Of a stretch of 64,000 bases of DNA, positions 2,870 through 59,170 are shown piece by piece (position 1 is the first letter of the stretch; every line of letters starts with the position of its first letter). The position numbers and the translations under genes were made by a program. The notes beneath the pieces were generated by a model. It ran no database searches, had not been told where the DNA came from, and was given only the letters and a program-made list of their open reading frames with translations. Origin of the DNA: Polytrichum commune (taxonomy: Eukaryota; Streptophyta; Polytrichopsida; Polytrichales; Polytrichaceae); the NCBI GenBank assembly GCA_950295325.1, contig OX485807.1, forward strand, positions 11,993,001 to 12,057,000, read 5' to 3'.

Positions 2870-4920
2870 ACCTGTCTCACACTTTAGAGCTCTACGATTT
2901 CGAGCATGTCACCGTTTTCCACCGCACCCATATTGTCCCATACCATTCATAATCCCGACATCTTGTAATTCAGCCACAAGCATGTCAGACTCTGTGGAAA
3001 GCATGTCGAGGGAGCAAATCACGCCGCAGTGTTATAAACTTCTGCCCTACCACACATGCTGCACGGCTTAAGATTGTCGCAGAGTTCGGGTGCTTCCATC
3101 TACTTATCTGAGAGCTCAAGGAAAAGCTCTACAGTTTAGACCATGTAATCATTTTCCACGGCACCGATATCATACCATACATAACCCCCGGAATATATAT
3201 GAAGTTTCAACCACAAGAGTGTCAAACTCTGTGAAAAGAATGTCTAAATGTCCAAGGAGAAAATCGCGTCGCAGTGGTAGAAATTTCTGCCCTACCACAC
3301 ATGCTGCAGAACTTAAGATTGTCGCAGAGTTCGGGAGAGCTCAAAGAAAAGCTCTACAGTTTAGAGCATGTCACCATTTCTCGCCGCACCCGTATCACAC
3401 TATGCCATTCAGAACCCCGACATCTATAATTCAGCCACAAGGATGTCAAACTCTGTGGGAAGAATGTCGAAGGAGAAAATCAAGTCGCAATAGTATAAAC
3501 TTCTGCCCTACCACACATGCTGCAGAACTTAAGATTGTCGCAGAGTTCGGGTGCTTCCACCTGAGAGCTGAAAGAAAAGCTTTATAGTTTCAGAGCATGC
3601 CACCATTTTCCCGGCACCCATACCATACCACACTTAACCCCCGGTATATATGATTATTCAGACACAAGGGTGTCAAACTCTGTGGAAAGAATGTCGAAGA
3701 AGAAAATCACGTAGCAATATTGCTATTAATAGTGTCAAGTTCTGCTCTACAACACATGCTGCAGGAGGTAAGATTGTCACAGAGATCGAGTGCTTCCATC
3801 TACCTATCTGAGAGCTCAAAAGAAAAGCTCTACAGTTCAGAGCATGTCACCGTATTCCACGGCACCAGTATCATACCATAGATAACCCCGACATACATAA
3901 TTCAGTCACAAGAGTGTCAAACTCTGTGGAAAGAACCTCGAAGGAGCAGATCACGTCGCAGTGGTATAAACTTGTGCTCTACCACACATGCTGCAGAAGT
4001 TAAGATTGAAGCAGCGGTCGGGTGCTGCTTCCATCTACCTATCTGAGAGCTGAAAGGAAAAGCTCTACAGTTCAGAGCATTGTCACCATTTTCCGTGGTT
4101 GAAAATATCATACCGTACGTAACCCCCGGTGAATATAATATTTTCAGCCACGAGAGTGTTAAACTCTGCACAAAGAATGTCGAAGGAGGACATCACGTCG
4201 CAGTGGTATAAAATCCTGCTCTACAACACATGATATGGCAGAACTTAAGGTTGTATAAAGCAGAGGTTAGGTGCTAATTCCATCTACCTATCTGAGAGCT
4301 CAAAGGATAGCTCTACAGATTAGAGCATGTCACCATTTCTCACGGCACCGATATCATACCATACATAACCCCGGCATATATAATTCAGCCACAAGAATGT
4401 CAAAGTCTAAGGACAGAATGTCGAAGAAGTAAAGCACGCCGCACTGGGGTTTAAGTTCTGCCTTACAACATGACATGCTGCAGAACTTAAGATTTTCGCA
4501 GAGTTCGGGTGTTCCTGCATCATCGACGATGCGATCAATCCACACATGCCATTGCGGATGTGGATGCTCCCATCTATAATTAACCTCTCTGACAGCTGAA
4601 TGGAAAGCACTAGAATTCAGAGCATGTAACGCCCATACTATAATATAAACATATTATCCGTAACCCCGATAATCCTAATTAAGTCAGCAAATTGCAGCAA
4701 GAGTGTCTGCAAACTTGGTGGAAAGAATCAAAGGAGCTAGCAAATCGCGCCACAGTGGCAGAAAAGTTCTGCTCTACATCATCCGCAATAAGATTATAGC
4801 TAGCAGAGTTCGACGATCGGGTGTGCCTTGATCACAATTGAAAATGAGAATCCACATGCCATCGCAAAGGATGCGATGGCTCCCATCATCTGTAATTACT
4901 CTATCTGCTTACTGAATAAA
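2870..4920. repeat. Satellite array, about 235-bp unit, about 8 copies
   Basis: Copies of one diverged unit follow one another. The marker GCATGTCACC(A/G)TTTTCC recurs near 2903, 3141, 3367, 3595, 3841, 4076, 4325 and 4622, giving spacings of 226-297 bp. Other shared parts are GTCAAACTCTGTGGAAAGAA, CACACATGCTGCAGAACTTA and GCAGAGTTCGGGTGCTTCCA. A more decayed copy runs from about 4680 to 4910. The array begins just upstream (on the minus strand) of the ATG of the left ABCG paralog, so it occupies that gene's leader or promoter region. The open frame through it at 3090-3587 is a by-product of the repeat. Confidence 0.85.
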
Positions 4921-8895: not shown

Positions 8896-8910
8896 GATAC
8901 CATATGCAAA
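8896..8910. repeat. Target-site duplication of the LINE, left copy
   Basis: GATACCATATGCAAA occurs here next to the A/G-rich tail and again at 21761-21775 beyond the LINE 5' end. Fifteen of fifteen bases match, which fixes both ends of the insertion. Confidence 0.93.
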
Positions 8911-8930
8911 GAAAAAGAAAAAAGAAAAAG
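8911..8930 (-). other. LINE 3' tail, (CTTTTT)n
   Basis: On the sense (minus) strand the element ends CTTTTTCTTTTTTCTTTTTC directly before the target duplication. The tail is thus a T-rich simple repeat and not poly(A). Confidence 0.75.
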
Positions 8931-8977
8931 TAACGCTAGTATATGATACCAGCGTGAATGCGAGCCCGTTAGCCATG

Positions 8978-9006
8978 CACTGATCACGGTATTCCGTGAT
9001 GCAGTG
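8978..9006 (-). other. Stem-loop in LINE 3' UTR
   Basis: CACTGATCACGG (8978-8989) pairs with CCGTGATGCAGTG (8994-9006) across a TATT loop: twelve base pairs with one bulged base. It lies about 50-95 bases before the 3' end of the element. In several LINE clades a 3' stem-loop is what the reverse transcriptase recognises; that role is inferred here. Confidence 0.7.
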
Positions 9007-9067
9007 TATGGTTTTATGCCTCCTGTGGGGAGGTGGGCTCTAGGGGTTTAATACAAACAAGCTATCT

Positions 9068-10954
9068 TTAATTAGGAGGGGGTACGGGTTTTTGTTTGTT
9101 GTCTAGTTTTCTTTTATTTAGTACTAAGTAGGTAAGGTATTTGATGGCGTTTTGGTGTATGTCTTTCATCAATTTTTTGATGTTTGATTTTGGGATGTTT
9201 ATTTTTGTGAGATTTTCAATGGAATGTTCGTGTATGGCTCCTCTTACTCCTGCCGTGATGGTTATGAGGGGGTTGGTTTTCCAACCGTTGTTTTGGATGA
9301 TGTTATTTAGTGGGTCATATTTGGCATGTTTGTGTGTGATGGCTTGTTCTGGGAATCTATCATGGCAGTATGTGAATTCAATGAATTGGATCGTATGTTC
9401 GGGAGAGGGTGATATAGGTGGTTGTATTTGTTTTGGTGCTCCGAGTATGCATAGGATGTTTGGTCTTAGTTTGGCGAGGCATTGGCATGGGTTTGGGTGG
9501 CAAGTGCATTGGAGCAGCCATTCCGGTACTGTTTGTTCTTGTGGTTGGTTATTAAAGTGACCTGCGTTTGTTAGTGTAAAGAATCTGGTATTTTTGTTGG
9601 CTTGTAATGTTTGGGCGATGAGATGTACTACTTTGTTGTGTCGTGCAATTCTAAGTCCTTTAAGGAATGGGTGCTCACATGTGGATAGTAGGTGAGGCCA
9701 TGTGTCACGTTCATTTTTATGGCATAGCGTGCAATTGGGGTTTGGGTGTGTGATAGGCCAAAATATGTTTATCCTGTGGTTACCCATATATTGGGCGTAT
9801 CTGAATTTGAGTGTTTGGGTGATTTGGGTATCCGGGATTCTCTCGTCTTGCCAAAAATGGTTGGAGAGTTTTTGGTTTATTTGGGTATTGGATAGCCATT
9901 TGTCTACGTATGGGAATTTATGTTTGGCTAGGCTTGCTTCATTTGTTTCGTGTTCTTTGGTTATGAATGTACGTAAGTTACGGATGGCTCCGTCGTGTGT
10001 GGCTGTTGGGCAGCCTGCTAGCCAGTATGGGGTCGAGTGGGCAGTGTGTATACATGGGGTGGTATTCGGTTTTTCTTTGGTAGTTCCTTCGTTTGCTAGT
10101 GCATCTGCTATTTCATTTCCGGTGATGCTTGTATGAGCCCGTACTTTATGTATGTGTATTTTGTGCGGGGTCCAATATATATGTCGTACTATTGCTGCTA
10201 TGAGTAGTTTGTCTGGGTGGTGGTGTTGTGATGTTGGGCGGTGGATGTGGTTGTTAATTAGATATATGTTGTTAAGGCTATCTGTAAATATGTGTGTGTC
10301 TATTTTAGTGAGTTGTATATTTTTAACGGCAATGAGAATTGCATTGAGTTCGGCTCTAAGTATGTTTTGGTAGCCTGGTAATCTTTCTGAGATTTTGGTG
10401 TTGTTGTTAGGGCTATATACTCCCGATCCTGCAATGTTTCCTTCTATTTGGCCTTCGGAGTTTTTGGTCGGGGGGATGAATGATCCATCCGTATATGTGC
10501 ATTGTTGTGGGTGGAATTTAAGGGGGTATGTGTTTGTGAATGTGCTTGGTAGGGGTATTATGTGGGTGTTTATGGTTTGGAGGGGGGTGGTTTTAGGGGC
10601 ATTTTTCCATGCGTTAGAGAATTTAACGTTGTAATGTGTGGGTGTGGGTTTGATGGGGTGGATGTCTATGTGTGTATGTGTAGTGTTTTTGAGTATTCTT
10701 TGTAATGCGGTTGGTATTTGGGTGTTATTTAGTATGGTTCCTTGGTTGTGTACGCATATGATTGATGTAAGGGATGGTTCGGTGTATTGGTAGTATTTTG
10801 GCCATTCTGGCGTGGGGTTGTATGTTATAGTATGTGGTGGGATTGTGGCTAGGATGTGTATGTCCGGGTTTGTGAGTGGTATTTGTTGTGGGGTCCAATC
10901 CTTGTGGTTTATTATTAGGATAGTGATTGTTTGTGCATCCTCTTTAGCGGCCAT
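9068..10954 (-). pseudogene. LINE ORF2 C-terminal part: RNase H, Cys/His motif, unknown tail
   Basis: A 628-codon open frame. Residues about 151-290 form a type-I RNase H domain with its acidic residues in place: D156 in TYTDGSF, E202 in RAELNA, D225 in IFTDSLN, then H274 and D284 in AHTSITGNEIADALA. Residues 408-426 give C-x2-C-x9-H-x4-C following GNHRINIFW, the layout of the zinc-binding domain usual after RT/RNase H in plant LINEs. Some 200 further residues follow, with a Cys cluster (CTCHPNPCQC) and a block HDRFPEQAI...KYDPL...ITAGVRGAIH that I cannot assign. The frame is still open upstream but an in-frame TAG lies just before this ATG (near 10975), in LEALH*ARMAAKED, so the ATG is probably not the true start. 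The frame is intact to its stop. Confidence 0.88.
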
Positions 10955-11266
10955 TCTAGCCTAGTGGAGGGCTTCGAGGGTTGTATTGTGGTCCGTGGGG
11001 AACGCTAGTCCATGCCCTGTCCATTTGGCCGAGTTTGCTTTGCCTATTGATCCAAATAGTATGTCTCGAGTGTGTGGGGAGTTATATTGGGTGAGTTGGG
11101 TAGGGCAAGTGAGGGGGGATGAATAGTATGAGTGTGTAATTTGGAAGGATTCTATGAGTGTTTTGGTGATTTCGGGGGGTAGTGTTTGGTGTAGGTTATT
11201 TGGTTGGATAGTTTTTGGCTTTCTCCTGGGGAGTATACTTATGTATCTTTGTAGGAGCCATAGGAT
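10955..11266 (-). pseudogene. LINE ORF2 linker between RT thumb and RNase H, disrupted
   Basis: The frame of the RNase H part reads back through here, for example NSAKWTGHGLAF and LAFPTDHNTTLEALH, before meeting the frame that ends at 11267. The join therefore needs one frame change plus the TAG noted near 10975. Confidence 0.6.
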
Positions 11267-12560
11267 TTATGTTTCAAAATCTTGTGGTGGTGGTTGTAGG
11301 AAGTTAGTGAGGTGTTGAAGGGTGTTATGAGAGAATTGGTTCCATAGCCAATGTAACCTTTCGAGGGTAAGGGTAGCTATGTAGTTTCCTTTTTGGTCAT
11401 ATATATTTGCTCCTGATGCGTGTGTTGTTATGGACGGTTTGTTGGTTATGATATCTTTGTCGGGGTTACATTCATGGATGCTTAGTGTGAGGTTGGTGAT
11501 TGTTAGTGGTGGATGTATAAACTTAGTGTCTTTTGTTTGGATATTGGTGAGGTAGTTGGCATATGTGTTAGTGGTGTTTTGTGTTGTGGTTGCGGTGTGG
11601 TATTGTGTGATGGTTAATAGGTTATGGTTTAAGAATATGTTGTCCAGGTGGAGTAAGTCTTCTTCTGTGCGCCATTGATGTGTGGTGTTGTTCGTGGTCT
11701 GCCATTGGCATAAGTATGTTGTTTTGATGGTTTGTGCTCCCCATTTGTCCTTTCTTGTGGTAGTTTTTTCTTTTATGATTTTATGTATGGCGTTCCCAAG
11801 TATTGGGTTTAGGTTGGGGTCGGTGGTTTGTGTCGGGTGTTGTGTTGTTTGGGGTGTTGTTTGGGGTGCGGGTTGTTGTGGTTGAGGGAATAATATTTGT
11901 GCTTGTTGTAGTGCCGCCTTAATGGTTTTGGGTGCGTTTTTGTATGTGATGCGGAATTCTTCGGGGGTGAGGATGGATGTGCTAGTTTTGTTTAAGATTT
12001 GTGATAGGGTGGTTATGCCATATGTGTAGAGTTTGTCTAGGTATTTTTGGGATTGTATTCTAGAGTGGTCCGAGAGGGTGTTGTATATGGGGTTGGTTCT
12101 CCATGCTATTTCTAGTGGGGTTTGTTTGATTGGGAAGGTTTTGTTTTTGGCGGTTACATGTATTTCATATTCTCTTTTGAGTAGGAATAGTGTCCGTGCT
12201 ATAGGGGACCTAGAGCACGCTTGTTGTTTTAGTTTAGGTAGGTGTAGGGAACCTCCGTATTTAGCGGATATGTATTTGGTTAGGCCTTGATAGATGGTAC
12301 CTAGTTGCCCTGGATCGTTGAGGGCTTGTAGTAGTTGCTGACCTATACAATGAATGTAGTCTGAGAGTAGTGAGGTCATATTTATGCCGAAGTTTTCGTG
12401 GGGTAAGTGTGTGAGGATATTGGCTGTACTTTTTGGTATGTTGCAAGTTTCTTTTGTTATTTTACTGATTATTTTATCAAGTTTTTTAATATCGGGCTTT
12501 GAAAAGGGGACCGCATAGTATGCGTAGGCAATCCGAGGTTTTATGACGGTATTAAGGATT
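11267..12560 (-). pseudogene. LINE ORF2 region after RT, with chromodomain-like stretch
   Basis: The frame open from 12379 (and readable back to about 12560 as KIKILNTVIKPRIAYAYY) continues the RT palm into the thumb/connection region, with Tyr-rich and Lys-rich helices such as LLKREYEIHV. After a Gln/Pro/Thr-rich linker (about residues 160-190 from the ATG at 12379), residues 198-261 read IHKIIKE...TTYLCQWQ...HQWRTEEDLLHL...ITQYH. The spacing of Tyr-Leu-x-x-Trp, Trp and Glu-Glu-Asp-Leu resembles a chromodomain. That likeness is only by eye. The frame ends at a TGA at 11267. Confidence 0.65.
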
Positions 12561-13758
12561 TTGATTTTTGTTTTAAGCTTGCCGGGGAGGCGGCGAGTAG
12601 TTTGCCTTGTTGTTTGGCTTTATTTAAGGTGACTTCTTTTTGGAGATTCCATTTTAGGGATGGCACTAGTTGGATGCCTAGGTATGTGTATGGCTCATTT
12701 TGTGTAAGGGTTGGGAAGTTTTTGGATTTATACATAATGTTTTGGGATTGGATGAACGCTTTAAAGGTATTAGGTTTGAGTTTGGACTTGTTAGGGCATC
12801 CGGTAATGGCGCATTTTGATAGGTTGAGATCCATATGCGCCCATTCAACGGATTTTTGGAGCTTAGTTATTTGAGGTTGAATATGTTGAATTTTGTCGGT
12901 GATAATGGCTAGGTCGTCGGCATATGCCGATGTGGTGCATGTGGATGGGGACGTGCTAAAGTGGTAGCCCATATTGCCCTTCTCTAGCCATCTTAAGAGT
13001 GGTTCTAGGAAGATTATGAATAAATATGGGCTAAGGGTGTCACCTTGTATGGTATCTCGGTTAATTTTGATGGGAGGTGTGGTTCCGAAGAAGTTACCCG
13101 TGAAGGCGGTGGTAGAATGGTTATAGATGTTGCCTACTATTTCGATGGCATCTAGGGGGTAGCCTAGGTCGGCCATGATAGCTAGGAGTCTTGTGTGGTC
13201 TATAGAACCAAAAGCGTTTTTAAAGTCTATGTATGTTAGATATATGTCTTTATTCGTGAGTCGTGCATCTTCGAGGGCGGCTATTAGCATTTGTATTTGC
13301 CTTGAGGTATTACGTTGTGGGCGGAAACCTTCTTGACTGAAGTGTAGTATGCGGTTTCTTTCCCCATAGTTTGTAAGGAGGGTTGTTAAGGTGCTAGTAT
13401 ATAATTTATATATTGTATTAGCTAACGCTATTGGTTTATAGTTGTTGAGTTGGGTAGGGTCTTCTTTTTTATGGAGTAAAATAGTTTTACTGTGTTTCCA
13501 GGCAGTTGGGATTTCCCGTTGTTTGTAGCAATGTAGGAAGAATAAGAATATAAGGGTTTGGCATTGTAGGGGTAATATCTTGATGATGTCCTTGGAAATG
13601 TTGTCCGGACCGGGGGTTTTACCTTTGGTTAATCTTTTTACATAATTGTCATATATTTCTCTAGTGAATTGTAGGCTTATTTGTGGGATTTGAGGTCCGC
13701 ATTTGTCTATTATGATCCCGTCTTGTGAGTGCCATAGATATTTTCGTATGACACACAT
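12541..13758 (-). pseudogene. LINE ORF2 reverse transcriptase domain
   Basis: An uninterrupted 405-codon frame covering RT motifs 0-7. It has GKTPGPDNISKDIIK, the first catalytic Asp in YIDFKNAFGSIDH (D178), EGFRPQRNTSRQI, QGDTLSPYLF (239-248), and the active-site AYADDLAI with Y279-A280-D281-D282. YLGIQLVPSLKW follows in the thumb-proximal part. All catalytic aspartates are present. The frame is lost at the right end near 13760-14056 and at the left end near 12550, so the domain is intact but the polyprotein is not. Confidence 0.93.
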
Positions 13759-14056
13759 ACATATGTGTGGGTGGTCTATGGTGTCATCGCAAATGGGCGT
13801 TTGTTTTTGAAATGATATTTGTAGGCGCGGTATATTTCATTGGCTATTTCTGTGGGTTTGGTAAGTATGTTATCGTGAGAGTCTTTTATGCAATCCAACG
13901 AGCTTTCGGTTGATGGTTGGAAGATCTTTTTGTGGATAGTTTTGGGTTTGGTGTTGAATAGGGCTCTATATTTCTTGATGGCGATTTTGCAGTTAATCGA
14001 GGTTTGTTTGGAGGTAATTTTGTAGGCATCTATTTTGGCCGTTTGTCCTATATGGG

Positions 14057-14971
14057 TTAGGTCCTCAATCCATTGTTTGTGGGTGGTGGGGTTTGTGGGG
14101 AGGGGGGGATGTTGACATTGTGGAGTGAGAGGAATGTCTTTATATCAGGGTGGTTATGTAATTGTGTGTGGTGGTAGTGGCAAGCTGCATGTATTGCTTT
14201 GCGGATGTTATGATATATTTTGAGGTGTGATTTCCAAATTTTTTGTTGCTTTCTTGGGAGGAATCCGCCTTGGATCTTGGCTCGGTTGGGGAGAGGGGGT
14301 GTGGGTTGTTTCATGCATGTTTGCTCAGCACAATTACTGAGAGAGTTTAAGATTTTTTGGAAGTTAAATTGGGATTCTTCCTATTGTGGTTGAGTGAGTT
14401 GTTCTTGTTGTAATGTGTCTATGAGATTTAATATTTCAAAATTTTGTTTATCTAGGAAGGTTGTTAGGAGGTTTTGGATATTTATCATGGATATAAGATA
14501 TGTGATCCTAAGATTGGTGTTAGGTGTTGATTTGGTCTTTATAATTATAGTGTTTGGGGCTAATTGTAATTGGACCGGATAATGGTCAAAATTTTGGTTA
14601 AGGTTAGTGATTGTGTGGCTTTGTAGGGAGGCGTGGTTTGGGAGGTTAGAGTAAAATCCATCAATGTGGATAGTCGCGGTGTAATTGTGTCCCCCTTGCC
14701 TTATGTACGTTTCGTGGTTATTAATCGTTTTAAGTCCTAGTCTTTGTGTGAAGTGAGCCCATTCATGGTCATGTGGGTTGGGAGGGGATGTTATTCCGTT
14801 GGATGACCGTCCTTTAAGGAGGATGTCACGGTTGAAGTTACCTCCTAGTATGATGTGGTGTGTTGAGTGATTTTGTACTAATGTTTGGATTTGGTTTTGG
14901 ATTTGGTTTTGGATTTGGTTTTGGATTTCTTGTATTAGGTGTAGGTCTTGGGGGTGTGTAGGCGTGTACAT
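14057..14971 (-). pseudogene. LINE ORF2 endonuclease C-terminal half and EN-RT linker
   Basis: One frame runs from 14971 to 14057, broken once by a TAG at about 14381 where CAG (Gln) is likely. It shows the later APE endonuclease motifs: ILGGNFNRDI (GDFN-type), IDGFYSNLPNH (Asp of the IDxxxS region) and NFDHYPVQL (the SDHxPV His). A short internal repeat of IQNQ (QEIQNQIQNQIQNQIQ), matched in DNA by repeated TTTGGATTTGGTTTTGGA-type units at 14885-14930, lies in the N-terminal part. After the stop, KQPTPPLPN...HHTQLHNHPDI leads towards RT. Frame is lost at 14057. Confidence 0.82.
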
Positions 14972-15333
14972 ATTTATGAGGAGTATGGGGGTAATTGGTT
15001 TTTTTTTATGGTGATGACTTGTAGGTATGGTGAGATTGTGCTAGGTGTGGGGATTTTGGTGATATTTTCGTTTGTGTGAATGGTTTTAGGTATCATAGTT
15101 AGGGTACCCCCTCTAGCCGGGTTGTCCCTAGAATATCTGTTTTGGTTTGGTGTTGTGATGTTTGAGTTGTTATATATAATTTTGTAGTTTGGAAATTTTT
15201 TGTCTATATATGTTGTGGATTTTAGTTTTTGGAGTTTAGTTTCTTGGATGAGTATGATATGTGGGTCTTTATGTATTGTTCGTGGGAGTTCTTGGATTCC
15301 AAGTAAACTTGAGCTGATACACCCTGTATTTCA
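14972..15333 (-). pseudogene. LINE ORF2 endonuclease N-terminal half
   Basis: Read on the minus strand from 15333. The stop TGA at 15331-15333 falls where the APE motif ITWN needs TGG: the surrounding reading is LKIIT*NTGCISSSL. Downstream come ILIQETKL (catalytic Glu) and NPARGGTLTMIPK, both standard endonuclease motifs. The frame then slips at a nine-base T run (plus strand 14999-15007, A9 in the sense strand), after which the frame starting at 14971 takes over. Confidence 0.8.
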
Positions 15334-16160
15334 GGTAATTATTTTTAATGTGGAAGTTTGGTGATTGTCCGTGTCTATGTTGGTGTTTGGGCTAAGGTTG
15401 GGGTGTATTATGTCATGTGTGGAGTGGTAACCATGTATGGTTTGTGTACTTTTGCTTAGCTCTAGTAGTATTTGTGGGGGTATATGAGGTATTTCTTTTT
15501 GTAGGATAAACATAGTTATGTTTTCCCCTTTGGCTATTTTTTCATTTATGTGTGTGTATGTTTGTGCTATGGTAGTCGGTGGTGTGTAGTGGTTGATGGT
15601 GTGTAAGTGTTGTTTGTGTAAGGAAGTGTATTCCGTGGATCTTTGTAGTCTTTTGAGGATGGTGAGGCATCGGGGGTCGATGTCTTCAACCATTTGTTGG
15701 TCGCATATTTGTGGTGTAGGTCCATATGTTATTATGAGGGCATAAATTTGGGAGTGTAGTGGGTGTTGTGAAAGTATTGGTTTGTGACGGTGTATGTTGG
15801 TTAGTTCTTGGTTAGGCGAGTCTTGTGTTAGGTGTGTTGAGAATAAGTTTTCTAGGTGGGTATATGAGGGTTTAAGTGAGGTGGTATTAGGTATAAAATA
15901 ATGTTTTTGTCTTTGTGTATAGTCCCGGGGGAGACCTTTAGTTATATGTACGGGTGGTCCGGGGTTAGGATGTATGTCGCCGCTAAGGAGTATGAGTACT
16001 TGGAGGTCTATAATATATTTGGTTAGTTTGTATAAGGATGGGTGTTTGTTATGGGTGTGTTGATGTTGGTGTGAGTTGTTCGTATGGGCGGGGTTTATTT
16101 GATGGATAGCGGTGGTGTAGCTTGGTATTATTATTGTAATTATAATACTTAAGGTTATAG
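15331..16160 (-). pseudogene. LINE ORF2 N-terminal region with second 2A-like module
   Basis: A frame open from about 16160 down to the TGA at 15331. It reads HPSLYKLTKYI, then the 2A-like element at 15955-16008, DLQVLILLSGDIHPNPGP, then VHITKGLPRDYTQRQKHYF. After this about 200 residues without a recognised fold lead to the endonuclease (MVEDIDPRCLTILKRLQR at 15693). It is in frame with the endonuclease start, so this copy of the 2A-like sequence sits where 2A sequences are known in other LINEs, at the N-terminus of ORF2. Ribosome skipping is inferred from the motif. Confidence 0.82.
15955..16008 (-). other. 2A-like sequence 2 (SGDIHPNPGP)
   Basis: Eighteen codons, DLQVLILLSGDIHPNPGP. It fits the D-x-E/x-x-NPGP 2A consensus in NPGP and the upstream Leu-rich stretch; the usual D(V/I)E is DIH here. 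Skipping would fall between the last Gly and Pro. Confidence 0.8.
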
Positions 16161-16724
16161 TTTTTCTTGTTTGGTGTGGGGACTTTGGAGTTTTTTGTGG
16201 TATATTATATCTTTTTGGGTTGTGTTGTTAGTTTGGTGAGGTGTTTGTTGGTAAGTAGTGTGGATATGTTGGGGGTGTGTCCAAGTTTGCCAAATGTTGA
16301 GCGTATGCTCTTTATTATAGCAATAATAGAAGAACCAATACATAAAGTTGGGTATGAAAAAATGTCTTTGTCTTTGTGTGTACCCTTGGGGGAGGTTTTT
16401 GGTAATGTGTGAGATTGGTCCGGGGTTAGGTTGTATATCACCGCTAAGAAGTATTAGTGCGTGTAAGTCTCTAATGTATGCAGTTAGTTTGTGTATGGTT
16501 GGATGTTTGTAGTGTGGGTGTTTGGTTGTGTAGAATGTGATGTATATGGTGGTGTGGTGTATGCCTATATGTTTTGGGTATTGGAATGGCGGTTGTTGCG
16601 GGGGGTGAGGTAGCGTGGGTATTGTGGGGTCTATGAGGGTTGTGGTGATTTTGTGGTGTGGTAATAGGTTCCCTTTATATGTAGGTATGTTGTGAGTAAG
16701 GTTGTAGTGGTGAGTGTTGTTCAT
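16155..16724 (-). pseudogene. LINE ORF2 5' segment with first 2A-like module
   Basis: A 189-codon frame from an ATG at 16724. The first 80 residues are His/Thr/Pro-rich. Residues 86-103 are the 2A-like DLHALILLSGDIQPNPGP (16416-16469), followed by SHITKNLPQGYTQRQRHFF, which is clearly the duplicate of the sequence after the second 2A-like element. After that the similarity fades; the frame ends at a TAA at 16155, where the frame with the second 2A is already open in another register. The distance between the two elements is 461 nt, so they are out of frame in this copy. Either a tandem duplication in ORF2 or one frameshift separates them. Confidence 0.8.
16416..16469 (-). other. 2A-like sequence 1 (SGDIQPNPGP)
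   Basis: Eighteen codons, DLHALILLSGDIQPNPGP. SGDIxPNPGP is the form typical of 2A-like sequences reported in animal non-LTR retrotransposons. The context on both sides is duplicated around 15955-16008. Confidence 0.85.
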
Positions 16725-16999
16725 GTGTGAGGATCCTATTTGGTGTGTAGTGGGCTTATTGTTGGGGGGGTAGTCTCATTATGTGGGTTTTTTGGGTGTG
16801 TGAAATCGGGTGGGTGGTTAATGAGAAGACATACCAGGCCTATGAGTGTTAAGATATATCGTGTTTGGACTTTTGGTGTGGGGTTAATGTGTGGATTTTT
16901 GTTGTTGTGTGTGGGTCTTGGGCGTGTGTAGGGTGGTTGTGGTGTGTGTTTGTGTTTTTTGTTAGGAGTGTAGTATGAGAAATTATACATAATGTGGAT
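16725..16999 (-). other. LINE spacer upstream of ORF2
   Basis: Still shows the A+C-rich sense-strand bias of the LINE. A 84-codon frame (16736-16990, with TLIGLVCLLINHPPDF) may be remains of ORF2 N-terminal sequence or leader; no domain is recognised. Confidence 0.4.
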
Positions 17000-17840
17000 G
17001 AGTCCTTATGATAGTGATAATATCTTGAACTTTTTATTGCATAGTAATAACAAAATATAACATATAAGGTAAAGGGGACATTTGTGATATGCTATGTGGG
17101 CACTATCCATTAAATGCATGGGGTCCTTGATGGTACATTTGTGGGTTGCCTTGGAAGCCCAGCGGGGCTTGAAGTGGTAGTGGTGGGCTCGGGGGGTGCA
17201 CTGTACTAAACATGTACGAGTATACGTGAGTGCACAGGAGGGGTATTGATTTGGACCTTGCCGTATTACGTATACATATGGTATACATGTTATAATTTAT
17301 AGTTACGTACATATATGGAAGGCCTTTAAAAAGTATACAATAATTGTACTTATATGGTACTGTTACTATACTAAATATCATAAGTTTTCATATTGGATGC
17401 GGAGGAAGTTTGGTAATCGTGGGGTGGAGTATAGGGATCCAATTGACTTGATGGACCGTCCATCAAATGTGGAGATTGGTTTATGTTGGTATCAAAAAGG
17501 GGCTAACAACAAGTGGACATATGATCTTACTGATCATTTGATGGTAGATTTAGAGACAATAATTGCATTGGCTATAATGACATATATTGGTGAATCAAAT
17601 GTTTATGAGTTACATCCGGGAGATGAAAAAGTTTTCAACAACTTTGCTAATGAAAGCTAGGATATTTTGTTATACATATTACAGGGGTTGATTATTGTTC
17701 AAAAATATATTTGTATACTTATGTTAATGACTATATATGAATGGATTTTTTTTGTGTATACATATTGTTACTTGTATATTTATTGTTGCAATTGTATGTG
17801 TATTACTTCATTTCAAAAAAAAAACTTGTATATAGGGGGT
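17000..17840 (+). other. Non-LINE segment inside the LINE
   Basis: The strong strand asymmetry of the LINE stops near 17000 and returns at about 17840. This segment is AT-rich with no G/T bias, holds a plus-strand ORF (17397-17660) and has a run of ten or so A at about 17815-17824. These fit an insertion in the opposite orientation, possibly a retrocopy. No target duplication was found, so the borders are approximate. Confidence 0.5.
17397..17660 (+). CDS. Small ORF, weakly WWE-like, inside the LINE
   Basis: An 87-codon plus-strand frame, antisense to the LINE. I do not recognise the gene. The order CWYQKGANNKWTYDL, ETIIALAIMTY, NVYELHPGDEKVFNNF recalls the layout of a WWE domain (aromatic pair, Lys-Trp, helix, two strands), but the match is weak. 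The part IMTYIGESNVYELHPGD resembles TMTYPPSSMLYELDSND encoded at 31654-31836 (9 of 21 residues identical over the aligned stretch), so both may come from one repeat-borne coding family. It has no clear promoter or splice context; the upstream frame is AT-rich. Confidence 0.35.
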   Translation: MRRKFGNRGVEYRDPIDLMDRPSNVEIGLCWYQKGANNKWTYDLTDHLMVDLETIIALAIMTYIGESNVYELHPGDEKVFNNFANES

Positions 17841-17842
17841 TT

Positions 17843-18880
17843 TTAGAGTATGTAGTGAACGCACGTGATTCTAGGTTTTAATGAAAGGTGCACCCCCCGA
17901 GGTGGTGGGGCGGTCGTGTGTAGGCCATGTGGTGTCGGTGGCGGGGCGGTTCTATGCAATATGTCCGGGGCGGCGGTGGAGAGGCCGTTGATGATGCCTT
18001 GCATGCGAATGTTGGATTGTTGAAATTCGTGGGCTATCGTTCCGAGGAGCGCATGTAGATTGTTGGAGTGGTTGGTGAGGGTTGTTGTGGTTGCGTTGTG
18101 TCTACGGTCCGTGTGGTGATTGATGGAGGTAGTGAGTGAACCGAACTTTTCGTCTAGTTTATCTTCAAATTCCTTCATGGTCTTTGTAAGATATGTTTCG
18201 GTGAGGAGTGGGTTGGGGTTGGTGGCGTTACCCATGGCTTGTATTTTGTCCGCGATGGCTTCTCGTGCGGGGGCTTGTGCGAGGCGAATTGCCGTTTTGT
18301 TGGGGTCCGATCCGTCGATGCTCCCGCGATGTGGGATGAAGTCGATGCGGCGTCCAATGATGAAGGTAGATTTGTGGATCCACTCCGTGTAGACCGCGGT
18401 GTTTAAGCATTGTATATGGTACCATCCCGCTTGTTTGTTGGTGGTGTCTTGGTTGTTGTTGCCAAAATTAATGCTCACGATGTTGTCCGCTCCAAAAAGT
18501 TGTTTGATGGCCTTGGTGATGGCGGTTTGTGGCTCCCGTTGTGGTAGGTTGTTAGCAACAAGAGTGGTGCTAATGCGGAGCTCCGAGGTGTTGCCGCCGC
18601 TCCGGTCGCGGATGATGCTCACTTGTAGCTTCTCCTTGTTGTAGGTGAGTCCTTCCTTAAGTACTATGTCCCTAGCTTCCTCCGTAGTAAGGGTGAGGAA
18701 TGCAAAATTCTTATTGAGTTCGGGTTTGGTGAGACCCATGAACTCGTGTTGGTGCCCATTGTAGTAGCTTTCTTGCACTACAGACTCAAAAATGGTGGAG
18801 GCATGCTCATGGCGGAGGGTTTCACCCTTGAGGTGTAACCGGAGGTTACGGGCCTTAGTGACTAGGTCACTAAGTATCTC
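17843..18880 (-). pseudogene. LINE ORF1, C-terminal part after a frameshift
   Basis: Continues ORF1 in the -1 frame: EILSDLVTKARNLRLHLKGE is readable upstream of the first ATG (18778), so this is not a separate gene. It contains a region like an RNA-recognition fold, STTLVANNLPQREPQTAITK through AGWYHIQCL to FIIGRRIDFIPH. A possible coiled segment follows (MKEFEDKLDEKFGSLTTSI), then a Pro-rich end (TAPPPTPHGLHTTAPPP). The likely job is nucleic-acid binding in the retrotransposon particle, by position and by analogy with other LINE ORF1 proteins. Confidence 0.7.
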
Positions 18881-21126
18881 TTTTCGACTTTGCCTATAAC
18901 TCTCTCACCGTCATCCATTTTCATGACAAATGCTCTATGGTCTCTAAGGAGTGACATACCATCTTGTTGGGGGTTTTTGAGGTGTACTTTAATGAACCCC
19001 GCCCAATTCTTGGTGACGGCATTGATCCTGACGTCGATTGGGTTGGAGTATATCGTGCCTAGGGGGATGTCCATTTGGTGAAGTCTCTCCAAGCAAGCTC
19101 CTCTTGCTTCTTGCCTAGTGATGCCTTTGAAGCCATGGTCGTATCGGATTGTGATGTGGAAGCCTTCGGATAAGCCGGTTGTTGGATCTACTTTCTCTTG
19201 TCTCGGGAGTTGGGTGAAATGGAGGTGGTTACCGGGAACCACATCCGGCCTCTCATTTGGATACAATGCTTGTGGTACTCGTGGGAATGCCCTTCGAAGT
19301 GTCTTGAAGTCGATGACTTCTCTTGTGGGAGTCCCGAGTCTTGCAAACTCCTCGTTGGTGCGGTGCTCTCTTATGGTCTCTTTTCCCCTTTGGGTGGCCA
19401 CGGCTTCATAGATGGAGAAGCCTAGCCACATGTGCGCAACTATGTCTAGGGTTGGGACGGCTTCCTTGGTCTTTGAGCTTGGAGGTGGAAGTGTGTTGGT
19501 GTGATCGACTTGTCCTCCCGCTTCACTCCTCCTTCGCTTGGTGCTTTGTGTGTCATTGATGGACTCCTTCCTAGAGTATGTTGTGGGTGTCGTTTCGGCT
19601 AGATTGATGACGGCTTGGTTTGGTGCGGCGGGGTAGTCATCTTGTGATGTTGAGAATTGAAGTGAGCTTCCGCCGTGCTCGGGGGACACGTCCGCTAATT
19701 GCATGTCTATGTCTAAATCATGAGAGGGAGTGGTTTGCACTCTTAGGGGGGCCATTTGATCAACTAATGGGGCGGCTGGATCTTCCTCGTCGTCACTATA
19801 AGTCTGTATGAGGGCCCTCCTTCGCCCTACGCTTTTGGTGCTGGTCTCGGTTCTGGCTTTGCTGTTGGTTGATTGGTCTCGAAGTGTGGGCCTTGTGGTT
19901 GGGCCCTGTTGCCGCGCTGCCCTCCCGTTCTCGCCGTGGCCCTGCTGTCGTGCTGCCCTCCCGCTCTCGTCGTGGCCTTGTTGTTGTGCCGCGCTCCCGC
20001 TCTCGCCCTGACTTTGTTGCCGTGCTCTCTCCCTAGTCGTTGCACTCCTGGTTCCTGCGCCTGGTGTGAGCTCGCTGCTTCTTGCGGGTCTCCTGGCCGG
20101 CTCGTGCTCTCCGTTCATCTTCTCTCCTTCTATGTTCAGCCTCCTCCAGGGTGTTGCTTTGTCTGGCTCCGACTGTTTATGACTCTTTCTCCTAGCTCGC
20201 GGCTCCTGCTCTGGTCGATTCTCTCCTGATGTACGGTGGTCCTGCTCTGTGGGGGGGATGGTGTTGGTGGTGTCCATTGTTGGGTGTTGGAGAAGGGTTG
20301 TGGATTGAGTGATGAGAATTGTGGGCTTTGGGGGTATTTGAAGGCGGGGTGGTTGATAGAATGTGGGGTGTTGGGAGTGTGCAGATGTATGGCGGTTCTT
20401 GTTGTTTTGGGAGATCTGGTGGCGGGTTGTGTTTCTTGGAGTGTTGTGATCTGTGTTGCTGGGGTGTTCAGGGCTGTGGATTGTGTGTTTTGGGGTTGTG
20501 ACCTGGCTGGGATGCTTTAGTCTAGGTTGGGTAGATCTTGGGAGGTCATGTTTTTGGCTTGGTGTATGTTCGGGGGGTGTGTGAGTTGTCATGAGGGTGG
20601 CTTGGTTATATTGGTTTTGTTTTGTGTGTGTTCTAGTGGGATTTCGGCTTGGTTGGTACTGAAAAATGGCCATGTGACGAGGCGGGGGGCGGCGGCCTTT
20701 CTTTTTTGGAGGTAAGTTTGTAAGCTTTGTGTATTTGTGTTGGTGTTGTGGTGTATTATGAGTGTGTGTTTGGTGGTAAGTGCAAGAGGTTTTGCTTACT
20801 TTGGTGGTTGTGGGTTTGTGGTGTGTGGGTGGCGATGGCGTGATTTTCATGCGTGGAGCGTACTTCAATCTTGGAGGTCGATAATGGTGGTAGTTTGGTG
20901 GGGTTAGGGAGTAGCTATTTGTTGGGTGGGTGAGTATTGGTGGGAGAAGTCTTAGTGGGTATATTGTTGGAGTGGGTTTGCAACTTGATGAGTATATTGT
21001 GGGTGTGTACATTGGGGGGAGATAGCTTTGTGGGTAGAGTGTGGGAGGTATCTTTGATGAGTGAGCAGTGTGGTGTGTGTATACACACAATGCAATGGTG
21101 CTTATGAGCACCCATTTTATAAGCAA
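18862..21126 (-). pseudogene. LINE ORF1, N-terminal and middle part
   Basis: A 754-codon frame from an ATG at 21126; an internal ATG at 20277 (MDTTNTIPPTEQDHRT) would give 471 residues and is the more believable start, because the first 280 residues are Thr/His/Pro-rich and look like translated leader. The middle is Arg/Glu/Gly-rich with three 12-residue repeats of the type QQGHGENGRAAR, encoded by 36-bp repeats at about 19906-20014. The C-terminal 200 residues are globular (VPTLDIVAHMWLGFSIYEA; FHITIRYDHGFKGITRQEAR). The frame stops at a TAG at 18862, where the -1 frame continues. Confidence 0.75.
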
Positions 21127-21760
21127 GGGAAAAACCCTATTGTTGATACTATGTGTTGGTGCCGAGTTTTTCCCTTCTCTTCTATTTCTTAGATCTGATC
21201 TGTTCTTCGTCTGTGTGCTTCGATATGATCTGCTCCTCTGTGTGCTTCGGTCTTCTCTGCAATCTGGTCTGCTTCGCTTCGTTTCCAGGGCTGGCCGGTG
21301 GTGTCGGCCATTTGCTGCTTCGAGGGCTTCTGTGCGGGTTTTGTGCCTTCTGTGCGGGTTCGCTGCCGGGTGTGGCCGGTGGTGTTGGACCTCTGTAGAT
21401 TCGTTGTCTGCATCTTCCGTTGCTGCTGGTCCTGTGTGTTTCTTCGGTGCCGTAGTGTAGAGATCCTCCGATGCAGGTCCATGGCTTTCTTGCGCTCCTT
21501 GGCAGATCTCCTAAGTTGTGATGTGATTTCGGTTGCCGTTCTGTCTATGCTCGCCCTGGAGCGCTATTAGGGTTAGGGGTGTTACTGCCGCTTCTTCTTC
21601 TCTTTGTAGGTGGTGGGTTGCGGCGTTTCTCCGTGGTTGCTCTGATCTGCATCCTTGCTTGCGGGAGTATTCTCGTGCTCCTGCGGCGTCTCTCCTGCTG
21701 GCTCTCCTCATCGCACCCCCGTGGCAACCATAGTAGATCATCGCCTTCACTAACGATACC
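21127..21760 (-). promoter_or_regulatory. LINE 5' untranslated region
   Basis: Lies between ORF1 and the right target duplication. It is more GC-rich than the flanks and pyrimidine-rich on the plus strand. Non-LTR elements need an internal promoter, so one is expected here, but no motif is specific enough to mark. The last bases are GGTATCGTTAGTGAAGGCG in sense orientation. Confidence 0.6.
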
Positions 21761-21775
21761 GATACCATATGCAAA
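21761..21775. repeat. Target-site duplication of the LINE, right copy
   Basis: GATACCATATGCAAA, identical to 8896-8910. An extra CGATACC stands directly before it (21754-21760), possibly added at the 5' end during insertion. Confidence 0.93.
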
Positions 21776-26479: not shown

Positions 26480-26840
26480 AGCTACTGGACCGGGACTGCA
26501 GAGGGTGGTTTCGGCAAGCCAAGCAGGCTGCTGGTTGAGTCTAAGGGGCTACTGGACCGAGACTGCAGAGGGTGGTTTCGGCAAGCCAAGCAGGCTGCTG
26601 GTTGAGTCTAAGGGGCTACTGGACCGAGACTGCAGAGGGTGGTTTCGGCAAGCCTAGCAGGTTGCTGGTTGAGTCTAAGGGGCTACTAGACCGAGACTGC
26701 AGAGGGTGGTTTCGGCAAGCCCAACTAGCTACTAGTTGAATCTAAGGGGCTACTGGACCGGAACTGCAGAGGGTGGTTTCGGCAAGCCCAGCTAGCTGCT
26801 AGTTGAATCTAAGGGGCTACTGGACTGGGACTGCTAGGGT
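26480..26840. repeat. 67-bp minisatellite in right foldback arm, about 5-6 copies
   Basis: GACTGCAGAGGGTGGTTTCG recurs at 26494, 26561, 26628, 26695 and 26762, exactly 67 bp apart, with a truncated unit at 26829. Confidence 0.92.
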
Positions 26841-30589: not shown

Positions 30590-31565
30590 CTTACAAAGCA
30601 TTTCATATAAATAAGAGACATTTTGAGCTATTTTCAAGGTTACCTAAATGTTGATGCTTGTATCCTTGGCACTGAGCAAACAAATTTCAATTTTTTTGGA
30701 GATTTTCAAGGTTACTTTGAAAACCACTTATAATCATTTGAGAAAAATAATAAAATTGAGAGAGAAACTCAAAGGTACACGAATGTTGATTTTAGTTATC
30801 TTGGCACATAGATGATTGATTTCAAATATTTAGAGAACTTTCAAAATCATTTTGAAAGCTCGGGGAAGCATTACAAGGGCTATTTCTAAACCATTTGAAA
30901 AAAATGAGAAATTGTAATAGAAACTTAGAGTTACCCAAATGTTGGTATTAATCATCTTGGCAACCAAATGACTGCTTTCAAGTTTTTAGAGATTTGTCAA
31001 AATCGGTCTAAATAGGCTAGGAAGCCCTGCAAGGAACATTTGTAAACCATTTGAGAGAAATAAAAGAAATTATGAGAGGAACTAAAAGGTACTAAAATAT
31101 TGATATTGGTCATCTCGGCATCAAGATGACAAATTTCAAAATTTTGGTGATTTCTCAAAATCGGTGTAAAGCCTTGGGAAGCGCTATGAGGGCCATTTCT
31201 AAACCATTTGACAATACTAAAAGAAATTATGGGAGAAACTAAGAGGTACCCAAATGTTGATGTTAGTCATCTTGGCATTGAGATGTTTAATTTCATTTCT
31301 TGAGAGATTATTTTAAATGGGTCTAAAAGCCCTTCGAAGCGTTGTGAGGGCCATTTGTAAATCATTTGCAAAAAAATAAGAGAAATTGTGAGAGAAGATT
31401 TAAAGGTATGCAAATGTTGATATTAATCATCTCGGCATTGAGATGACTAATTTCAAAATCTTTCAGATTTTCCAAAATCGGTGTGAAAGCCTTCAAAAAC
31501 GTTGTGAGGGCCATTTGTAAACCATTTGAGAAGCGTTGTGAGGGTCATTTGTAAACCACTGAAGA
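30590..31565. repeat. 159-bp tandem repeat, about 6 copies
   Basis: Units marked by TACC(C)AAATGTTGATATT(A/G) near 30641, 30774, 30931, 31090, 31249 and 31408; the last four intervals are 157-159 bp, the first shorter. Each unit also has CATCTTGGCA, GAAGC(G/C)(T/C)T(G/A)TGAGGGCCATTT and GTAAACCATTTGA. Confidence 0.85.
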
Positions 31566-42770: not shown

Positions 42771-45700
42771 ATGTCTCACCTGCCCCCCAATAATCTCGTC
42801 AGCTCTGGGGTTGCATTTCCAATGACTCCAGAAAAACCTCCTATTTACGACCTCTCTGTCCACAACTTGACCTACAAGGTAAGATTGCATGCATGCCGGG
42901 CTAATTTTTTCACAAACCCTCCAGACTTGGCTGTACATCTGTTCCCCTGAGCTCTTGAGAAGAATCACATGAAACATTGATTATTTCTCTGTGTATGATT
43001 GCTTTAAACTCATCATGTGATCCGATCATACTTTGTTGCCATCTTACTTAATCCTTAAATTGCAGGTGGTTACAAGAGTGAAGAAAGAGACAGTGGAGAA
43101 GACGCTTTTGAACAATGTATCGGTTGACGTCCATCAGAGTGAGCTGCTGGCAATTGCAGGACCTTCTGGCTCATCGAAGACGACGTTTCTGGATGCTTTG
43201 GCAGGCAGGATCAATCCGAGGAGCCTCAAAGGTCAGATTCTCGTCAACGGCAAACCCATGGATTCGGCCTTCAAGCGTGTCTCCGGATATGTGATGCAGG
43301 TATGAACTTATTATAAGGAACTCCTGTCCCTTTTACATCAGCTGTTTCTAAGTCACTTTCAATGGTTCCAATGTAGGTATTTGATGTAGTATTGCTGCAA
43401 CACGAAGAGGAGCAACACGCTTGGAAAGAGGGCGTTGAGAGGAGGAATCCATTGATGCCATTTGTGTCTGAGTTAGAAAAGATTTTGACTTTCGAATATC
43501 TGTGTTTTTACAAGCAGTAAGTTTTCTAAAGCAGCAGGGCTCAGCATCCCGGCCTACATCCTATGTATTTCTTTCCACAGTTTCTAAATTTTCTTTAGAG
43601 ATTTCTTAGAGTTTATAGCCTTAAAAAATGCTTATAGTTCCTGTAGAGGATACTTCAGTATTGTCGGGAGGTTTTGATGTGTTACACAGTGCCTTTCACC
43701 CTCTTAAGATTCCATGTTGTTGACATCTCAGTTTCTGTGGCGCAGGATGATGCTCTACTACCAAATTTGACCACAAAAGAGACTCTCATGTTCAGTGCGC
43801 GGCTCAGGCTTCCTGGTAGCATGAAGATTGAAGAGAAGCGGTTGCGCGTAGACTCCCTGATCGGAATTCTGGGTCTTCAAGCATGTGCCGATACACGTGT
43901 TGGCAATGAAAAGGTGCTGTAATCTGAAGTTCCTTTTTTTTTTTTTTAATTTTTTTTTTTTAATACCTGTTCTCTATTCCTGTGTGCATCATCAACATTG
44001 TTCACCTTGCACCAAACAATGTGTAAGGATCTCCCTGTACACAACAATTTATGAAGCCTAATGTCACATGAACTGAAAATAAGAATCAACTCAGTCAGTG
44101 AATGCTTTATGAACGCTTCTGGAAATTCGGAGTGATGGCTGATCATGAATTGTACAGTTTAGGTTGCAAAACTAACATTTAGCAATCAAATTGTGAAGAG
44201 TGGGGGTTAGATGGATCAACCAAAACGCAAAATTATGAAACCAATAATAATTATCTCCGGCTATTACAGAATGCTTTCAAATTTTAAGGAACAGAGATGA
44301 TGTTGAGGCACAAAGTTCATACCAGGTTTAGTGAACGGTTCCAAATCCTAAGGAGCAGAGTTGAAGTTTCTGCCTAGAGTTTATACCTGATTTGCCTCCA
44401 GCTCAGTGAATGGTGTCAAATTCTAAGGAACAGAGTTGATGTTGGTACCCAAAGCTCAGATCTCATTTTGCCTCCAGCATAGTGAATGGTATCATATTCT
44501 AAGGAACAGAATCGATGTTGATGCACAAAATTTATACCTTGTTTGCCTCCAGCTCAGTGAATGCTTTCAAATTCTAAGGAACAGTTTTGATGTTGATGCA
44601 CAAAGTTTATTTTCCTGATTTGCCTCCAGCTTAGTGAATGGTTCCAAATTCTAAGGGACAGAGCTAGATTGTTGATGCCCAAAGCTCAGATCTCATTTGC
44701 CTCCAGCATAGTGGATGGTTTCAAATTTCAAGGAACAGAATCGATGTTGATGCACAAAAGTTCAGACCTGATTTGCCTCCAGCTTGGTGAATGCTTTCAA
44801 ATTCTATGGAACAGAATTGATGTTGTTGAACAAAGTTTATTTACCTGATTTGCCTCCAGCTTAGTGAACGGTTCCAAATTCTAAGGAACAGAGTAGATTG
44901 TTGATGCCCAAAGTTCAGACCTCATTCGCCTCCAGCACAGTAGAATGGTTTCAAATTTTGATGTTGATGCACCAAAGTTGAGACCTGGTTTTGCGTCCAT
45001 GAGCTTAGTGGGATGAAGTTGTTGGGTGGTGGTTTGGCAGGTGCGAGGGGTGTCAGGTGGAGAAAAACGGCGGGTGTCGATAGGAGTGGATTTGATCCAC
45101 GACCCAGCAGTGTTGTTCCTGGATGAGCCCACATCTGGCCTGGACAGCACCTCCGCACTGCACGTCCTCCAGATTCTGTCTCAAATGGCGCTCACCCGCC
45201 ACCGCACTGTTGTGCTCACAATTCACCAGCCCAGCTACCGCCTTCTTGCGTCCATCACCAAATTCTTGGTGCTGGCTAGAGGCAATGTGGTTTACCACGG
45301 TGACGTCTCTGGGATGGTGGGCCACTTCAGTTGCGTCCAACAGAGCATGCCTCCACATGTCAGAGACAACACCCTCAACCCTAAACCTACCTTTCATTTT
45401 GTGCACAGACACCACAACATTGATTCATCACAGACCTCTCAACCTATATCATCTCATCAACACTGATTTCACATTCATTCAATCACGTCAAGCTACATTC
45501 TGGATTCAATGCCTACCAAACATACTTAAGGTTACAATTATCTATGTCTATATATGTATGGGACTTGCTAAATCGACCACAGAGACGCATCACACAGTCA
45601 CATGACTTCTCATTGATTCTTCATCGCACACATGAAGAGGAGCAAGGTATCACCTTTGTGTTAGAATTAATAAACTTGGATGACAAGTCATAGCCCAGTC

Positions 45701-58689: not shown

Positions 58690-59170
58690 CCCGTCATGTA
58701 CTAGGGCTGCCCAATGTAAACATTAACAATGATGTAAATAACATAACATTACTCGTCTTAGCTATGGCAATCTGTGGATCATGGTTAAGATTCTCGAATG
58801 TTTGGTGTGTTTAGTTGGGGCGGCCTAATGTTGACATCAACAATGATGCAAACAACATAATATTACTTAGCTTAGCCATGGTGTTTTGTGGACCATGGCT
58901 AAGATTCTCGAATGTTTGACGAGTTTAGTTGAGGCTGCTCAATGTTGACATAAACAATGATGTAAAAAACATAACATTACTTAGCTTAGCCATAGCATGG
59001 TGTGGACCATGGTTGAAATTCGCAAATGTTTGGTGAGTTTAGTTGGGGCTGCCCAATGTTGACATCAACGATGATGCAAACAACATTACAATACTCACCT
59101 TAGCCATGGCGTTCTATGGAACTTACCAAACCTTCGCGAATCTTAGCCATGGTCCACAAAACACCATGGC
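58690..59170. repeat. 115-bp tandem repeat, 4 copies
   Basis: (C)AATGTTGACAT(C/A)AACAATG recurs at about 58712, 58827, 58941 and 59055 (114-115 bp apart) with TTAGCTTAGCCATGG, TGTGGACCATGG and TCTCGAATGTTTGGTG. It abuts the TAA target duplication of the next element. Confidence 0.88.

Follow-up and report, generated by a model that had tools for sequence, protein, structure and literature searches.

Two motifs encoded near the N-terminus of ORF2 in a plant LINE, given here the working label Dualen-like, are probably genuine tandem StopGo (2A) sites. The element lies on the minus strand of the window (the whole 64,000-nt stretch of DNA that was analysed) and is a full-length non-LTR retrotransposon of 12,850 nt (8911-21760) with several frame breaks. 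A perfect 15-bp target-site duplication is present on both sides, and this direct repeat marks the 12,850-nt insertion as complete. From module A onward, ORF2 of the window copy is interrupted by four in-frame stops and changes frame five times, showing that this copy is dead. An intact element would probably make several proteins from one message; the skipping, the stability of its products and a function of the released peptides are predicted from sequence. The features of the element are as follows.

21761..21775, minus strand: target-site duplication, 5' copy, TTTGCATATGGTATC
17843..21510, minus strand: ORF1 region in two overlapping frames (18862-21510 and 17843-18904)
17189..17900, minus strand: stretch missing from the four relatives compared, with 13-nt inverted ends
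17108..17110, minus strand: probable original ORF2 start (MDSAHIAYHK...), resembling MDSDHIRYHQ in the related locus L040
16347..16520, minus strand: 2A module A, 58 codons
16416..16469, minus strand: 2A-like motif A, DLHALILLSGDIQPNPGP, p14 = Q
16155..16227, minus strand: overlap of the open frames of A and B
15886..16059, minus strand: 2A module B, 58 codons
15955..16008, minus strand: 2A-like motif B, DLQVLILLSGDIHPNPGP, p14 = H
14384..15330, minus strand: APE-type endonuclease region in two overlapping frames (PF03372, E 0.12; PF14529, E 0.0019)
12544..13836, minus strand: reverse transcriptase (RT; PF00078, 5.3e-30)
11612..11821, minus strand: chromodomain-like stretch after the RT (PF00385, E 0.0015; 18.9 bits vs. 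a cut-off of 25.1)
10085..10501, minus strand: RNase H (PF00075, 1.6e-14; residues 154-292 of window:9071-10960)
9071..9733, minus strand: C-terminal region with CCHC and restriction-like-endonuclease (RLE)-like motifs (CTLC...H...C, RHN, RPN and KYDPL, read by eye)
8911..8930, minus strand: pyrimidine 3' tail, (CTTTTT)n-like, read directly
8896..8910, minus strand: target-site duplication, 3' copy

Modules A and B hold the only two NPGP motifs of the whole element on either strand, and both match LILLSGDI(Q/H)PNPGP within modules of ~58 residues. The original prediction had placed the two motifs on the minus strand at 16416-16469 and 15955-16008, and both were recovered there. The mean chance expectation of [DGCN][VI]xxNPGP is 0.005 per element (400 Markov-1 sequences, three frames, one strand). 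The proposal that a whole module of about 60 residues was duplicated also holds, as the repeat unit covers 175-182 nt with 76-77% identity, and 41 of 59 residues are identical. The modules are 461 nt apart in the window, one short of a multiple of three, and the two NPGP sites thus fall in different frames. In agreement with the registers first proposed, module A lies in a 206-codon frame (16158-16775) and module B in a 298-codon frame (15334-16227) that runs into the endonuclease past one in-frame stop (15331). Trained on the RT/RNase H part, a codon-usage score takes positive values over 16640-16251 in the A frame, with another frame scoring near it at 16400-16251 (8.4 vs. 9.8), and from 16160 onward in the B frame; the coding signal shifts from the A to the B frame within the overlap of the two frames. 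This overlap is 73 nt long, and a -1 shift within it would join A to B, so the change of frame could be pictured as a programmed frameshift instead of decay; cardioviruses are described as carrying a frameshift site near StopGo (PMC5009743). However, no X XXY YYZ heptamer occurs in the A register in 16155-16227, TTTTTTC at 16362 is in register but outside the overlap, and six close relatives have a zero-frame spacing between the modules, making a programmed frameshift scarcely credible.

The genome (407.8 Mb, 64 contigs) was searched by DNA for further copies, the motif not being required, and 45 matches were obtained, with 40 of 81 candidates scored. These matches represent the window and 39 other loci, each taken as a stretch of ~4 or 7 kb. 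Six loci (L002-L007) are 96-98% identical to the window over nearly the whole module region. The check suggested with the original prediction, whether both NPGP motifs share one frame in relatives, gave a spacing of 462 nt in all six. Both modules lie in one uninterrupted ORF in L002, L003, L004, L005 and L007, and L006 keeps the shared frame but has an intervening stop. Two more divergent copies, L039 and L040, also show the 462-nt spacing in one ORF. The 40 loci, window included, hold one module in 18 cases and two or three in 22, a count that required N[PSL]G[PQ] and leans towards kept cores. One-module relatives, which the original prediction had taken as a sign of an artefact, thus exist, but the pair is kept in the close copies and is not peculiar to the window.

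Comparison of module A with module B gave a dS of 0.78 and a dN of 0.19 (ratio 0.25, vs. 0.58-1.32 in the five other readings). In simulations with one module neutral, an equally low ratio was found in 0-4.7% of the selected runs. The four ORF2 stops correspond to an insertion age of about 1.2-1.4% neutral divergence (95% range 0.3-3.7%), an estimate that counts stops from 16724 on, while the 111 codons above hold one more in the frame of the ATG. Set beside the ~1% decay since insertion, a dS of 0.78 shows that the modules were duplicated long before the element inserted here. Modules A and B were probably both maintained as protein-coding sequence. A recent duplication, a mis-assembly or an artefact of the window copy would suit the different frames in the window and the single module in 18/40 loci, but the age of the duplication and the one-frame pair in the six close copies and in L039 and L040 leave such an origin with practically no likelihood.

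StopGo requires D(V/I)ExNPGP plus a fitting upstream context, of which LLLLSG-like hexapeptides are described as a major class (PMC12846837). The window cores DIQPNPGP and DIHPNPGP fit (D/G/C/N)(V/I)ExNPGP at every position but p14, and LILLSG precedes the D in both motifs, as fits the upstream context for p12 = D. The strict core with E14 is present in L009, L010, L028, L038 and L044-L046, and in L044, L045 and L046 the frame around it stays open for 1477, 313 and 858 codons, respectively. The motifs are in frame within a longer ORF in L002-L005, L007, L040, L043 and others; A and B together are not so in the window copy. Genome-wide, the DNA form of GD[VIM][EDQH]xNPGP gave 406 matches, vs. 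0 for the reversed control. Among the first 100 of the 406 places (contig C1 and part of C2), many cores are the canonical E14. These 100 places include 12 neighbour pairs within 3 kb on one strand, and the spacing is a multiple of three in 11 of the 12 (P 4.7e-5), intervening stops having been examined in L040 and L043 only.

Conservation was analysed in 40 non-redundant modules with an HMM score of 45 or more, the motif not being required. Counts for the core are 39/39 for D, 40/40 for N, 36/40 for the inner P, 40/40 for G and 40/40 for the last P, and since the profile was built from NPGP modules this conservation leans towards kept cores. Position p14 is Q in 23, H in 11, E in 4, K in 1 and T in 1, the T being an artefact of L012. 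Each conserved core codon varies synonymously (33 distinct DNA forms), indicating that selection acts on the peptide. The conserved block spans ~31 residues before and ~23 past NPGP, beyond what StopGo needs on the 3' side, and flank columns H1, H3, K5, Q53 and F57 are conserved nearly like the core (first H 26/26; H3, K5, Q53, F57 and N60 at 0.90-0.95). Together with the predominance of Q or H at p14 (34/40 modules), these features would be expected of a folded N-terminal domain or a nucleic-acid-binding motif that holds NPGP by chance and causes no skipping. However, the core residues D, N, G and P do not vary, p14 shifts among E, Q, H and K as in StopGo variants, and canonical GDIE[PSTL]NPGP cores occur within the same superfamily. 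The upstream hexapeptide belongs to a known StopGo class, and H14 is reported as active in vitro (PMC12846837). A module without skipping is accordingly improbable, and the StopGo reading is preferred.

The two window motifs may differ in strength, as natural H14 variants are reported to be over 95% active, vs. 56% or 26% for E14Q in a virus context (PMC12846837). Module B might then be the only working StopGo and module A, with Q14, a weakened relic, the product being mainly a fusion. The pN/pS ratios among the seven close copies (0.78 for A and 0.28 for B) point the same way. However, the ratio for the endonuclease is 1.04, so the seven copies are largely decaying and the difference between A and B says little. 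Moreover, L002-L007, L039 and L040 all keep an undamaged A core, simulations with one neutral copy fit poorly, and Q14 is the commonest form among the non-redundant modules (23/40). A relic module A is thus rather unlikely, and StopGo activity at both modules remains the favoured reading.

A nearly intact ORF2 is found in L040 and the adjacent L041, where it is open for 1357 + 1 + 1051 codons (2,409), both modules included, followed by one stop and a 228-codon end; ORF1 also has one stop there. The L002 ORF with both modules has 1025 codons. The NPGP motifs are at residues 198 and 352 in L040 and at 283 and 437 in L002, 154 apart in both, and both loci have Q14 first and H14 second. The inter-2A sequences of L040 and L002 are strongly diverged (dN 0.59-0.80, dS saturated, in two blocks covering most of the stretch), and the pair is putatively orthologous between the subfamilies. 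The upstream halves of the modules are alike within each subfamily (KLTxYIxDL vs. YYTWNNS), suggesting homogenisation. Hydrophobic stretches are present between A and B in the window (TITLSIIITIIIP) and in L040 (WPLLLICCIFSFLY). An ORF2 start at ATG 16724 with a 102-aa leader was considered and dropped; relatives place the start at 17110, and the frame of the window copy is broken between the start at 17108-17110 and module A.

In an intact element, ORF2 would be read in one frame across both modules. With the LILLSGDIxP stretch in the exit tunnel, the nascent chain would be released at each NPG/P and the ribosome would continue. The first product would be a leader ending in NPG; it had been expected to be short, but counted from the first plausible Met it would be longer, about 245 aa in L002 and 173 aa in L040. 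The second product, the inter-2A peptide, would measure 154 aa, and the third would be an endonuclease-RT-RNase H protein beginning with Pro. Uncut fusions would be made too, as far as each site leaks, with more leakage expected at Q14 than at H14. The conserved ~23 residues past NPG/P would form the N-terminus of each downstream product.

Two or more modules are present in 21 of the 39 relatives, and one uninterrupted ORF contains them in 13 of these 21, or in 12/20 without the deletion hybrid L012. The apparent second module of L012 is an artefact of this hybrid and was removed from the count. L012 has a single hybrid module, apparently from a deletion between A and B, that is, loss by inter-module recombination. 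Several loci are near-identical copies (L013/L014, L015/L016, L039/L040 and L023-L025), and the multi-module loci are therefore not independent events. Three modules occur in L010, in one 750-codon ORF with NLGP as the middle core, and in L043, where three intact NPGP cores share a single ORF of at least 1361 codons. Damaged cores read NSGP in L011 and L018, NLGP in L010 and L032, and NPGQ in L025. In L046, a tandem protein repeat contains a canonical GDIETNPGP and, ahead of it, a decayed copy (DTETNLGP); a module is apparently in the course of loss. The module number (1-3) apparently differs among subfamilies through duplication and loss. It is somewhat more likely than not that a whole superfamily of dual-endonuclease LINEs in a plant expresses ORF2 as a multi-StopGo polyprotein, in which 1-3 2A sites, all in frame and acquired or lost through duplication of modules, release short peptides ahead of the enzyme.

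RT, endonuclease and target-site duplication, the criteria for a LINE, are all present in the element. Plant L1 elements usually have a poly(A) tail, whereas the tail here is pyrimidine. The element looks like a dual-endonuclease LINE of the Dualen/RandI kind and not like a plant L1; Dualen-like is a working label because the C-terminal RLE rests on weak matches and motifs read by eye. The endonuclease match is weak in the window, and relatives exceed the curated Pfam cut-offs, L040 for PF14529 (1.3e-8) and L002 for both families (PF14529 6.7e-8 and PF03372 1.7e-7). The Dualen features of an APE endonuclease upstream of the RT (L040 and L002) and an RNase H are thus present. The best solved relatives of the RT are R2 proteins (4.7e-28), and the CCHC and RHN motifs align weakly to an R2-type protein at 940-979 (E 0.34 and 1). 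RPD...E and KHAKY, presumably an RLE-type motif, were read by eye in L041, and RPD reads RPN in the window. The alignment-free AlphaFold model of the C-terminal region had a pLDDT of 35 and was unusable. The only NCBIfam matches of the element, to RNase H and bacterial RTs, were weak and stayed under the cut-offs, and the ORF1 region (17843-21510) had no Pfam match at E 0.1.

The element resembles Dualen/RandI of green algae in its APE endonuclease upstream of the RT, its RNase H, also reported for Dualen/RandI (PMC4640811), and, tentatively, its R2-like CCHC/RLE-like C-terminus. Its pyrimidine tail is similar to the (CTTT)n tail of the SINE SINEX-2_CR, the partner of RandI-2; however, the available part of the same source mentions no tandem 2A modules for Dualen/RandI (PMC3747384). 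Dualen/RandI stand under protists, in green algae only, in the available part of a 2015 survey (PMC4438587), and are reported from cryptophytes in a 2025 paper (PMC12747079). The present element suggests a dual-endonuclease LINE lineage in plants beyond the green algae listed for it. Searches for relatives in viral contigs (RT, 2A pattern, two modules and RT alignment) and in other genome contigs (RT and 2A pattern) found none.

L1Tc of T. cruzi carries a 2A sequence at its N-terminus. The 2A LINEs, comprising L1Tc and those of sea urchin and other animals, share with the present element an SGDIxxNPGP-type core in frame with LINE proteins, as far as the accounts at hand describe them. In contrast, the host here is a plant, many copies have 2-3 repeats per frame, p14 is mostly Q or H, and the conserved module is larger. 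The picornaviruses with multiple 2A sites (Paavivirinae) likewise have several NPGP per ORF, separated by ~50-150 aa (PMC11512398), but they are RNA viruses and not retrotransposons, and the modules here are recognisable duplicates of one another. In sea urchin SpNLR2A, an N-terminal 2A decides the load of the downstream protein (PMC4981915); that 2A belongs to a host gene and has a signal-peptide function, whereas the one here belongs to an ORF2 leader. 2A is reported to work in plant cells (PMC4981915).

StopGo is described, in the available part of one source, as largely viral and rare in cellular organisms, with almost no plant-virus cases, and a survey gave no sign that plant viruses use it (PMC12846837). 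No report of a plant LINE with 2A, or of a LINE with multiple 2A sites, was found; key papers on 2A LINEs lay outside the search, and an earlier description is possible. If the reading is correct, the ~400 StopGo-type core motifs in one genome, with the LINE setting established for those read, would mean that a plant uses StopGo naturally and on the scale of its genome, and plants would have long been hosts of natural StopGo. They would also provide many natural variants of p14 and the upstream context for work on the mechanism and for biotechnology, and would raise the question of the role of the released LINE leader peptides.

Several further features were observed in the element. It is a mosaic: its identity to L002, L004 and L007 is 95-97.5% on the downstream side of 16682 but 73-85% on the upstream side, a pattern that would suit recombination between two subfamilies or a template switch. 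About 710 nt (17189-17900) are extra, being absent in the four relatives compared by BLASTN, and have 13-nt perfect inverted ends (TCGGGGGGTGCAC/GTGCACCCCCCGA); this stretch is probably a later insertion with a MITE-type look that cuts the end of ORF1. At 15800-16999 (minus), the ORF2 strand contains very little G (8-18 per 200 nt) and is rich in A and C. The chromodomain-like stretch (11612-11821) has a CDYL2 chromodomain match at E 0.12 and is also weakly seen in L041 (PF00385, E 0.046); it could aim insertion at chromatin. Its alignment-free AlphaFold model is poor (60), and the PDB fold search with this model gave 285 matches at E <= 10 and 0 at E <= 0.001, with no chromodomain among the best 50 of the 285. 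In L041 (3-3155), residues 545-633 before the RNase H are PCIF1_WW-like (PF12237 6.1e-7, 29.6 bits vs. a cut-off of 31.1); the search of solved structures with this stretch gave four other matches (E 1.2-1.4) and no PCIF1.

Elsewhere in the window, the best solved relative of an exon of an ABCG gene is ABC transporter G family member 16, presumably a plant protein (9.3e-26 vs. 1.7e-9 for ABCG2), and the same protein is matched by a second ABCG exon (1.1e-27 vs. 4.6e-24); this gene supports a plant as the host. Tandem arrays with units of ~67-242 nt are present at 44328-44957, 3110-4515, 26481-26834, 30735-31529 and 58704-59120, and one of them directly precedes an ABCG exon.
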